A DNA stretch of 64,000 nucleotides from Methyloversatilis universalis. Lineage in GTDB: Bacteria > Pseudomonadota > Gammaproteobacteria > Methylococcales > Methylococcaceae. Shown here piece after piece: positions 34,686 through 39,279 of this stretch. The DNA lies in assembly GCA_020723665.1 (NCBI GenBank), contig DYIL01000006.1:1-64000 (forward strand), given 5' to 3'. Position 1 is the stretch's first letter, and the number at the start of each line of letters is the position of its first letter. Below the pieces are notes generated by a model, which was given only the letters and a program-made list of their open reading frames with translations, did no database searches and was not told where the DNA came from. Both the position numbers and the translations under genes were made by a program.

Positions 34686-34973
34686 CTAATTCATGCTCTG
34701 CGTCAAGACTTGGCTAACCGGCTGCGTGACAGGCCCAAGAAGCCCCAAAAGGCTTCCATTGAGCCCGAAGACCGAGGGTGTGGCTAAGTTAACGCAAACA
34801 TTCACGGCATTCAGAAGGCCAAAGCAAGCCCCGCCTTCGACAGCGGCGAGTTGCTGCTCGCTCATGGGCGTCAGGCTAGACACCTGCCCCAAGGCCCGAA
34901 AGTCGTCGTCCGCCAAAGCCGAACCCGCAACCATCATCGAAGACAACACGGCAGCCAATGCATACGATTTCAT
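34686..34973 (-). CDS. Candidate double-glycine-leader peptide precursor A (Sec signal + GG motif, 47-aa core)
   Basis: MKSYALAAVLSSMMVAGSALADDDFRALGQVSSLTPMSEQQLAAVEGG|ACFGLLNAVNVCVNLATPSVFGLNGSLLGLLGPVTQPVSQVLTQSMN; strong SD AAGGAG 7 nt upstream of ATG. Confidence 0.8.
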   Translation of the reverse strand: MKSYALAAVLSSMMVAGSALADDDFRALGQVSSLTPMSEQQLAAVEGGACFGLLNAVNVCVNLATPSVFGLNGSLLGLLGPVTQPVSQVLTQSMN

Positions 34974-34999
34974 AATCGAACTCCTTGTCTTGCATGAAA

Positions 35000-35028
35000 G
35001 CGGGGGAAGCGAATCGCCGTTCCCCCGC
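35000..35028. promoter_or_regulatory. Perfect 9-bp stem-loop in the intercistronic gap of the precursor pair
   Basis: GCGGGGGAA-GCGAATCGCCG-TTCCCCCGC. Confidence 0.6.
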
Positions 35029-35077
35029 CCGGTTTCCCGGCCCGAGTGACGTGTACACACGGGCGATCGGCGTATCG

Positions 35078-35365
35078 TTAATTCATGCTCTGCGTAGTGA
35101 CTTGCGCAATGGTCTGGTTGGTTGCTCCAAGAAGACCAAGAAGGCTTGCATTGATCCCAATCACCGTAGGTACGGCCAGGTTCGCACAAAAATTCGCCGC
35201 ATTTAGAATACCGTTACATGCTCCGCCTTCGACCGCGGCGAGTTGCTGCTCGCTCATGGGCGTCAGGCTAGACACCTGCCCCAAGGCCCGAAAGTCGTCG
35301 TCCGCCAAAGCCGAACCCACAACCATCATCGAAGACAACACCGCAGCCAATGCATACGATTTCAT
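35078..35365 (-). CDS. Candidate double-glycine-leader peptide precursor B
   Basis: MKSYALAAVLSSMMVVGSALADDDFRALGQVSSLTPMSEQQLAAVEGG|ACNGILNAANFCANLAVPTVIGINASLLGLLGATNQTIAQVTTQSMN; same SD. Confidence 0.8.
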   Translation of the reverse strand: MKSYALAAVLSSMMVVGSALADDDFRALGQVSSLTPMSEQQLAAVEGGACNGILNAANFCANLAVPTVIGINASLLGLLGATNQTIAQVTTQSMN

Positions 35366-35499
35366 AATCGAACTCCTTGTCTTGCATATCCAACAAGTTT
35401 CCTTACAGTCGCACTTTGTCCTTGAAAGTGTGCGACGCAAGATCACCGATGCCAAACTCCCTTTGGCCCGGGCCGTGTCCTTACGGCCAACCATGATAA

Positions 35500-35515
35500 T
35501 GCAGATCCTATGCCA
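35500..35515 (-). promoter_or_regulatory. Candidate sigma54 (-24/-12) promoter upstream of precursor B
   Basis: Minus strand TGGCAT-AGGAT-CTGCA versus TGGCAC-N5-TTGCA: GG and GC dinucleotides present with exact spacing, 9 of 11 consensus positions. Confidence 0.5.
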
Positions 35516-35634
35516 CTACTGATCGTTCGAGCCGTGGCAGACCTATCCGCTTGTTTTGACGCTAACTTTTGTTTCTCCATGCAGAGCTTTCGGACGTTTC
35601 GCCAGGTTTTCAGCCCCCGAATGGCAATTGCCGC

Positions 35635-36482: not shown

Positions 36483-37838
36483 TCATTTATGAATTTTGAT
36501 ATCGTGTTTTTTCATTAACCGATAGAGCGTGACATGCGATACCCCGACGATTTGGGCGGCCGCCACTACGCTGTCCCCGGCTTGCGCCAAAGCCTGGTTG
36601 ATCAACTCCTTTTCCGCTTGATCCTTGGCCGCTTTCAGGCTCAAGACGAAAGGCCGCGGTAAATATTCCTCCAAGCCCAAGTCCGCGGGTGTGATATAAG
36701 CATCTTCACACATCACCAGCGCACGTTCGACCCGGTTCTTCAACTCGCGAACATTTCCCGGCCAAGTGTAATGGCGCATGGCCTTCAAGGCGCGGCGACT
36801 GAACTGTCTGGCTTTGCAAGCATTTTCCTTCTTAAAATTATTGAGAAAATATTCCGCGAGCAATTCGATGTCGTAACCCCGCTCCCGCAAAGGCGGCATG
36901 ATCACTCTTAGGACATTGAGTCGATAATAAAGGTCTTCTCGAAAGTGCCCCTTACGGACAGCGTCTTCAAGATCAACATGGGTCGCCGAAATAATTCGGA
37001 CATCGACGGCAATTTCTTCGTGGCCGCCGACCCGATAAATGGTTTTCTGCTGAAGAAAGCGAAGCAGATTGGCTTGCAAGTCAAGAGGCAATTCGCCAGC
37101 TTCATCCAGGAAAAGAGTACCCCCTCCCGCTTTTTCGATCAGCCCCAATTTTCGCTGATGAGCGCCGGTGAAAGCGCCCTTCTCGTAACCGAACAACTCC
37201 GACTGAATCAAATTCGACGGCAAAGCGGCACAATTGACGGCGATAAAGGGTCCGTCGGAACGCGGCGAATATTTATGTATGGCTAACGCGGCCAGTTCCT
37301 TGCCGGTCCCGCTCTCCCCCGTGATCAAGACAGGTAAGTCGTAGGATACGACTTTATCGATGCTGTGCAGCACCCGCCTCATAGCAGGGCTTGATCCGAT
37401 CAATTCGCTCTTACTGATCCATTCGTTCGCGCGGGGAAATATCTTTTTCTTTACCCCTGCCATTCCGGCTGCGTGACCGAGCACGACTTTTAATCGATCG
37501 ACATCGAACGGCAAGGTGTGATAATCGTAGAAATACTCCGCAATAAGCCGACAGACGGCCTCGTTTTCCATGGACGAGGCAGAAACCAAAGCCAGCCACT
37601 GCATGGATGATCCCTCGGGATAATAAAAAATATCGCCGATAACGCGCTGGAGAAAATTTTCATCGAACGGCTCGAATCGAATAAGCCCGACGTGAAAATC
37701 GCCGGTACCTAATTGGTTGCGAGCTTTGGCGGGGTCACAAGTGACATAAATCCCGCCTTCGATCGCACTTTTTATTGGTAAAACGATATCATCCGCCTCT
37801 GGATTTGCGGCGAGGTAAAGGACGTTAATACTTTCCAT
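36483..37838 (-). CDS. Sigma54-dependent transcriptional regulator (AAA+ / Fis-type HTH, VpsR-like pseudo-receiver)
   Basis: GESGTGKELAALAIHKYS, GAFTGAHQRKLGLIEKAGGGTLFLDEAGELPLDLQANLLRFLQ; C-terminal SVVAAAQIVGVSHVTLYRLMKKH; probable start MESINVLYLAANP. Confidence 0.93.
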   Translation of the reverse strand: MESINVLYLAANPEADDIVLPIKSAIEGGIYVTCDPAKARNQLGTGDFHVGLIRFEPFDENFLQRVIGDIFYYPEGSSMQWLALVSASSMENEAVCRLIAEYFYDYHTLPFDVDRLKVVLGHAAGMAGVKKKIFPRANEWISKSELIGSSPAMRRVLHSIDKVVSYDLPVLITGESGTGKELAALAIHKYSPRSDGPFIAVNCAALPSNLIQSELFGYEKGAFTGAHQRKLGLIEKAGGGTLFLDEAGELPLDLQANLLRFLQQKTIYRVGGHEEIAVDVRIISATHVDLEDAVRKGHFREDLYYRLNVLRVIMPPLRERGYDIELLAEYFLNNFKKENACKARQFSRRALKAMRHYTWPGNVRELKNRVERALVMCEDAYITPADLGLEEYLPRPFVLSLKAAKDQAEKELINQALAQAGDSVVAAAQIVGVSHVTLYRLMKKHDIKIHK

Positions 37839-38025
37839 GTAACCTTCCCAGCCTTGCGATCCATGCAAGTTTTGGCTATTCAAAGGTCAAAACCGAACAT
37901 CGGGTGTCAGTCGGCCCACCCAAGTCAATTAACGCGTAACCCTCATTATGCCCTTTCCGATGCCTCCAACTGTCACTGACATCATGCTGCCAATTCGACA
38001 TCTCCTCGATAACCAGGTATCCCTC

Positions 38026-39279
38026 TCATTTTAAAAACGGCAAGGGATACTGCTGATCGAACCGGTAGGGAACGTTGATGCCCGCAAAAAGATCCGTCGC
38101 CTCCTCGCTCAAGCCGAAGTTTACAAAAGGTTCCACGAATAACCCCTTGGAGACCTGGATGGTAACCGCCAGGTTGAGCGAATGGACATCCCTACCGGAC
38201 CCTTCAATCTCTCGCCCATCCAGCTTGCTTCGTCTGATAGCAGCACCAGTTAAAGCCGTGGAGAAACTAACCCGATCATTCAACGAGAATCCCATACCGA
38301 GCGAATATGGAATTTGATCGCCCGGGTCAATACCGTTCCGCTCGATGACGGCGTTATAGCCCAAGGAACCGAAGAGCACGACCGGATCTATCGTCTTGAC
38401 CAGAGACACGGAACCGCCGACATTCCAAAAGCCGGTGCCTAGGCTCGGATCGACACCCAGGACCAGTAAATTCGAAGGCCCCAGAATCGGCGTAAGTCCG
38501 CGGCCCTCACGTCCGGAATCCGATTTGACGTTCAGGCTCAAGGTGGTTTCCGGAACGAGGCCGTCTTCATGCAAAGCACCCCATCGCAGACTGCCGCTGA
38601 CGTCTCCCAACCCGGAACCATCCTGTCGAGTGAAACCGATATCTCCAACGCTAATTAGCGACGAACGCGTATCGAGTTCCAGTTCTTGGAAAGTAAATGG
38701 AACCGATATATCCAGTTCGAGATCGTCGATCACGCCGTAGCGAAACAAAACACCGGCCCCCGCCGTCCTGGCCCTCAATTTATAGGGCGATATTTCCGCT
38801 GTATCCTGAGCGTAACTCGCGCTGAACTCGACCTGCAAATCGCCTTTCTTGAACAAAACCTTCTGCGACCTCAGGAATTGGTCGAGTTCTATCTTGGCTT
38901 CCTCCGCTTCTTTTTCGCGGTCGCCCTCCTGCAAGCCCATTTCCTGCGACACCTTTCTCGGCGCAGAGGAAGCCGCGGCCGTTTCCGCCCGGGCTGTCGT
39001 GGCCTTTTCGCCTTGCTTCTGCTCCGCAGTTTTCGTAAGCGCTTCCTGCTTTTTGTCCGCTTCCGGCTGCGCCACCGCCTGCCGCGCCCAGGACTCGTGT
39101 TCCATGAGCATTCGAACCTGGGATTTCAAGGCCTCAACCTCCTGTTTCAGCTTTTCGTATTCGCTGCGAGGAACCGTATCCTCGGCCGTGGGCTTCGATC
39201 GGGCATAAGAAGCACTGCTATTCACAAGCGAAACAAAAAACACCCCACAAACGATTACTGGTATGCGTGTTTTTATCAT
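38026..39279 (-). CDS. Outer-membrane beta-barrel protein with N-terminal coiled coil (Phenol_MetA_deg/FapF-like)
   Basis: Signal peptide; coiled coil SEYEKLKQEVEALKSQVRMLMEHE; QVEFSASYAQD...GVIDDLELDISVPFTFQ beta-rich C-terminal domain ending in ...FLK. Confidence 0.65.
   Translation of the reverse strand: MIKTRIPVIVCGVFFVSLVNSSASYARSKPTAEDTVPRSEYEKLKQEVEALKSQVRMLMEHESWARQAVAQPEADKKQEALTKTAEQKQGEKATTARAETAAASSAPRKVSQEMGLQEGDREKEAEEAKIELDQFLRSQKVLFKKGDLQVEFSASYAQDTAEISPYKLRARTAGAGVLFRYGVIDDLELDISVPFTFQELELDTRSSLISVGDIGFTRQDGSGLGDVSGSLRWGALHEDGLVPETTLSLNVKSDSGREGRGLTPILGPSNLLVLGVDPSLGTGFWNVGGSVSLVKTIDPVVLFGSLGYNAVIERNGIDPGDQIPYSLGMGFSLNDRVSFSTALTGAAIRRSKLDGREIEGSGRDVHSLNLAVTIQVSKGLFVEPFVNFGLSEEATDLFAGINVPYRFDQQYPLPFLK

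Follow-up and report, generated by a model that had tools for sequence, protein, structure and literature searches.

Two tandem genes on the minus strand of the window (the whole 64,000-nt stretch of DNA analysed here, from a methane-oxidising bacterium) encode 95-residue precursors, each consisting of a Sec-type signal, an acidic leader ending in Gly-Gly and a short core. We consider it likely that a FapD/FapF-type secretion pathway carries them as small cargo: they would be exported by Sec, cut at Gly-Gly by a periplasmic FapD and released as cores through FapF. The evidence comprises the architecture of the precursors, the make-up of their loci, a recombination break at the Gly-Gly codons and the co-occurrence of the family with FapD and FapF.

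Precursor gene 1 (P0001, positions 34,686–34,973) and precursor gene 2 (P0002, 35,078–35,365) share one layout: a predicted Sec signal over residues 1–21, its site placed by the A-x-A rule rather than by a signal predictor, an acidic leader down to Gly47-Gly48 and a 47-residue core with two Cys. The two 165-bp blocks that carry the ribosome-binding site and leader (34,831–34,995 and 35,223–35,387, minus strand) differ at exactly three positions (34,842, 34,927 and 34,950), as the original prediction had counted, compared with 44 differences between the adjoining 141-bp cores (34,689–34,829 and 35,081–35,221, minus strand; Fisher P about 10⁻¹³). The leaders, which end in VEGG, have a single difference over 48 residues, and 30 of 47 core residues are identical, again reproducing the earlier counts, and the two Cys, the SLLGLLG segment and the TQSMN end ascribed to both cores are present. 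Neither core contains a charged residue. The copies show no relationship directly upstream of the blocks, which sets the start of the shared module about 22 nt ahead of the ATG; its end is at Gly-Gly. No significant match to the precursor was obtained in PHROGs, PDB or plasmids, a literature search for the leader strings found no match, and an AlphaFold model of the precursor (pLDDT 42) was uninformative. Membership of the class IIc bacteriocins (PF10439) was considered and rejected, at 15–16 bits against a gathering cut-off of 27.1.

The leader and core have had different histories. In a four-gene site-pattern test comparing the window pair with the orthologous pair of a second species (G002), the informative leader sites comprised eight with the genome pattern, in which paralogues are alike within a genome, and none with the orthology pattern; the informative core sites comprised none and 28, respectively (leader versus core, P = 3 × 10⁻⁸). 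The original prediction had proposed searching for a recombination breakpoint at the Gly-Gly codons (nt 139–144), and there it lies: the last genome-pattern site is nt 138 and the first orthology-pattern site is nt 150, an interval that corresponds to 34,824–34,836 in gene 1 and 35,216–35,228 in gene 2 (both minus strand). Silent sites split likewise, with leader dS of 0.09–0.13 within genomes versus 0.24–0.28 between orthologues and core dS of 1.0–1.6 within genomes versus 0.15–0.46 between orthologues. Leader trees follow genome and locus, both blocks grouping by genome, and core trees mostly follow orthologous position; core 1 has 79% amino acid identity to its second-species orthologue and 64% to the neighbouring paralogue, and core 2 has 85% identity to its orthologue. 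Between G001 and G003, the same test gave the same trend (P = 0.001–0.002). The result is less clean than for the window pair, one reason being a G003 leader that escaped homogenisation.

Because the site patterns, silent sites included, split at Gly-Gly, homogenisation of the leader by recombination within clusters, with a switch at these codons, is strongly supported by the sequence comparisons. That strong purifying selection could keep the leader constant by itself, without recombination, is an account to which we give almost no credence. The leaders do behave as functional tags whose protein sequence is conserved throughout the genus, but silent leader sites are also homogenised within genomes, the tree switches sharply at Gly-Gly, and the identity between copies takes in 22 untranslated bases. 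The pattern thus indicates that leader uniformity is the product of gene conversion or equivalent exchange within clusters, not of constraint alone, and the sharp break at Gly-Gly is a clean natural case of tandem genes having their tag homogenised. Of the two processes named in the original prediction, leader homogenisation is therefore borne out by site patterns, silent-site divergence and discordant trees; the cores have indeed diversified, but in a way that looks ordinary, with dN/dS between orthologous cores of 0.22 and 0.46. A silent-site leader tree that matched the core tree would have spoken for constraint without recombination, and we found the opposite.

The pair belongs to a family with 4–7 matches in each of four Methylocaldum genomes compared (G000–G003, Methylocaldum sp. 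14B among them) and none in 57 other genomes of the order. The genome of the window (G000) contains five matches beyond the pair at E < 1 × 10⁻⁷, of which two come from a single frame-broken gene, one from each half. Leaders are near-constant across the family, and the cores share the pattern N.CLN.AVPT....N....G...Q.I.QVT.QSI; Asn and Gln make up 15–21% of the main-family cores in Methylocaldum, several of which are uncharged, and the Asn and Gln positions are conserved in the alignment. Cysteines are paired in 15 of 18 aligned cores and absent from the other three, with no core having one; the C-x9-C spacing noted earlier is found in both window genes but is not a family-wide feature, paralogues ranging from C-x6-C to C-x10-C. 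This paired presence or absence suggests a disulfide. Decayed paralogues occur at L026:11132-11450 and G000:C51:17688-17807, one out of frame near Gly-Gly and one reduced to the leader. In two Methylocaldum genomes (L091:6843-7235 and L034:12301-12681), another conserved precursor, with a Sec signal, the leader motif L.D..LDR[VI]EGG and a core of about 70 residues, immediately precedes fapD.

A FapF-type outer-membrane exporter is encoded next to the pair (38,026–39,279, minus strand), with a coiled coil (residues 38–69), a linker, a plug helix (118–138) and a β-barrel. It matches NCBIfam FapF (E = 1.7 × 10⁻²⁵, 89.7 bits, below the equivalog cut-off of 700) and the FapF structure 5o65 in the PDB (E = 2 × 10⁻²⁰). 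Its AlphaFold model (pLDDT 80) contains the coiled coil, plug helix and barrel, and in a Foldseek search the top 18 matches were all FapF, with target TM scores of about 0.8 (up to 0.84); the predicted fold and the PDB sequence match together indicate the coiled coil, plug and 12-strand barrel of a FapF exporter. A C39 peptidase with an apparent signal peptide adjoins paralogues of the pair in all four genomes of the genus. Its best NCBIfam match is FapD (E = 9.5 × 10⁻³⁰, 103.5 bits, below the cut-off of 330) and its catalytic Cys54, His144 and Asp160 are conserved in a broad alignment, features that, as read from sequence, mark it as FapD-type.

In G001 and G003, fapF, the regulator described below, three or four precursors and fapD are colinear on one strand. 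The cluster is split in G000 and G002, where fapF, the regulator and the pair adjoin eda-edd-zwf, and fapD with other precursors lies on another contig (G000) or about 65 kb from the pair (G002). Members of the precursor family turned up in no genomes other than these four, the ones with close FapD and FapF orthologues. FapC, sought in the four genus genomes at E = 0.01, gave no match with a model that finds FapC in two Aeromonas genomes, and FapE gave none in the same four genomes with its positive control detected; a complete Fap system was therefore rejected for the genus. G000 also has a second, fuller Fap-like locus (L072, G000:C102:5000-14640, and L073). Its FapD scores 142 bits and its FapF 140, and it includes a sigma-54 activator, candidate subunits rich in Asn and a 166-aa protein bearing the leader-like AEDAELDELRGG.

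In the mechanism that we propose, Sec would move the precursor into the periplasm, where the first signal would be removed; the periplasmic FapD-type C39 peptidase, encoded elsewhere beside sister precursors, would cleave after Gly47-Gly48; and the FapF-type pore encoded next door would export the 45–50-aa core. The leader would serve as a shared tag for processing and export, kept uniform in each cluster by recombination, as the cores keep their separate histories. What the cores then do is the least certain step: with uncharged, Asn/Gln-rich and Cys-paired sequences, surface fibres seem their likeliest role. Since searches of the genus detected neither FapC nor FapE, this fibre reading rests on core composition and the Fap partnership.

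Instead of fibre subunits, the same pathway could secrete cores that act as antimicrobial or signalling peptides, a reading that we regard as possible though unlikely. In its favour, the leader is similar to those of class IIc bacteriocins (PF10439 E = 0.01–0.02, below cut-off), candidate cargo in another Methylococcaceae genome (L107) has short, strongly cationic and mutually unrelated cores, and one Methylocaldum cluster includes an unrelated core behind a similar leader (L029:10702, in G002). Several Methylocaldum cores, however, including both in the window, are uncharged with conserved aligned Asn and Gln positions, and in an unsystematic look we noticed no immunity-type gene adjoining the precursor genes.

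Classical double-glycine bacteriocins or microcins, which an inner-membrane peptidase-ABC transporter cleaves and exports, would also have a Gly-Gly leader whose hydrophobic pattern is conserved, but here a Sec-type signal precedes the leader and the linked partners are FapD and FapF instead of such an exporter. No peptidase-ABC transporter was detected in the window's genome, whose only two C39 peptidases, 240 and 238 aa as read from their genes, both stand alone (assembly 94% complete), and we judge this reading very improbable. Modification before export by unlinked enzymes, as for RiPP precursors, would suit the leader–core layout and the two Cys in each core, yet it appears extremely improbable: the main neighbours profiled are housekeeping genes, the regulator and FapF, with no RiPP modification enzyme among them, the Sec signal implies unfolded export into the periplasm, and the Cys come or go as pairs, suggesting a disulfide. 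The processed ribosomal peptides of the original prediction thus probably deserve the name in that a leader is cleaved off, but with a Sec signal and FapD/FapF-type partners they appear to be neither RiPPs nor classical double-glycine bacteriocins.

A sigma-54-dependent activator whose N-terminal domain is of VpsR type, identified by profile matches, lies at 36,483–37,883 (minus strand), and an orthologue-like gene lies between fapF and the precursors in the other three genomes. A sigma-54-like −24/−12 element, TGGCATAGGATCTGCA (35,500–35,515, minus strand), is located 150 nt upstream of the pair's first gene, and TGGCAY-N5-CTGCA, with sigma-54 spacing, recurs 147–155 nt upstream of ten precursors in four species. 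Since the bare sigma-54 pattern is no commoner in the window than chance, only this cross-species conservation counts. The adjoining activator probably controls the precursor genes. A 5′-UTR hairpin, GGCCGTAAGGACACGGCC, with AAGGA in its loop (35,471–35,488, minus strand), is conserved in 12 upstream regions, with 98.6% of cells paired and double changes at two pairs (modest covariation); among 500 shuffles, 27 reached this percentage paired and 9 the covariation score. The 5′-UTR of the first precursor (35,380–35,520) contains several AAGGA or GGGA motifs, two of them in hairpin loops. Motifs of this kind, as in CsrA targets, suggest CsrA control of the precursor 5′-UTR, and the window's genome has one csrA gene.

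A profile scan of contigs with a FapD alignment yielded 80 loci in several phyla, 71 of which have a FapF-like ORF within 5 kb of FapD. Of 99 small ORFs with a Sec signal and Gly-Gly-type leader within 4 kb of FapD, 85 share the strand of FapD and 14 lie on the other; beyond 4 kb there were none and two, respectively, in 495 kb. The common form of the leader is L[ST]xxQMDxVTAG; a simple pattern search detected same-strand copies of the leader motif close to just 39 of the 80 loci. Precursor, fapD and fapF are consecutive in Methyloglobulus (L093). Three tandem precursors that share the leader LAPSELDKVQGQ lie beside FapD and FapF genes in an uncultured Methylococcaceae (L107:2069-3365), their cores short, cationic, mutually unrelated and antimicrobial-like. 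Four FapD loci of Oxalobacteraceae and relatives (L109, L118, L139 and L156) have 4–6 consecutive Sec and VTAG precursors with curlin-like cores (QINISPVVIIQIGNNNTAIVYSGNF). Methylocaldum cores and Herbaspirillum-type cores (QINISPV..QIGNNNTA), compared as profiles, gave no significant match (E = 0.083), and we claim no homology.

Of 20 FapE proteins encoded in Fap operons of Aeromonas, Halomonas, Amphritea, Acidithiobacillus and others, 19 (L166:8584-9240 among them) have a [VL]xDxxLAxIRGR-type motif (..DxELAxIRGR) at about residues 37–49; RGG is present in the FapE-like proteins of Deltaproteobacteria. Located after the signal peptide, the FapE motif is a candidate FapD cleavage site. No FapE peptides were detected over roughly the first 70 residues by Rouse et al. 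(2017, PMC5557850). In FapB-type proteins at L166:6082-6657 and L165:5887-6546, too, a motif directly follows the signal (LGSQALSNIRGA and ISDNAMSGVHGA).

A broader reading, which we lean towards slightly, is that FapD and FapF form a general route, in several phyla, for small cargo with a Sec signal and a double-glycine-type leader cut in the periplasm, with amyloid Fap as one specialised case, the FapE DxELAxIRGR motif as the same leader, and cargo ranging from fibre subunits to antimicrobial-like peptides. If so, the motif would identify FapE as a FapD substrate. FapD is essential for Fap secretion, with a substrate that was ‘yet to be determined’ in 2018 (PMC6173800); canonical C39 sites were said to be absent from Fap proteins (PMC5557850), and a 2025 review has FapD ‘thought to’ process FapE and FapF (PMC12822426). 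With compact cargo that has a canonical site and is linked to both FapD and FapF, and with a related motif in FapE, the cleavage rule and the range of cargo can be tested directly.

Among known systems, class IIc bacteriocins and double-glycine microcins share the L..M.E.QLA.VEGG leader, but the precursors here have an additional Sec signal and fall below the Pfam cut-off, and no peptidase-ABC exporter was detected in the window's genome. The putative FilA-F pilus system supplies the second-best matches for the peptidase and pore (NCBIfam FilB and FilC), but these are weaker than those to Fap and FilA-like subunits were not seen. The Pseudomonas Fap system (FapABCDEF; PMC5557850) has in common with Methylocaldum a FapF-type barrel exporter, a periplasmic C39 peptidase of FapD type and Sec-exported, Asn/Gln-rich cargo, and the neighbouring sigma-54 activator is paralleled in the Aeromonas fap loci examined. 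Unlike in Fap, the Methylocaldum genes are split over two loci in two species, and their cargo is only 45–50 aa long, behind a canonical Gly-Gly leader, and encoded in tandem with a shared leader and variable core.
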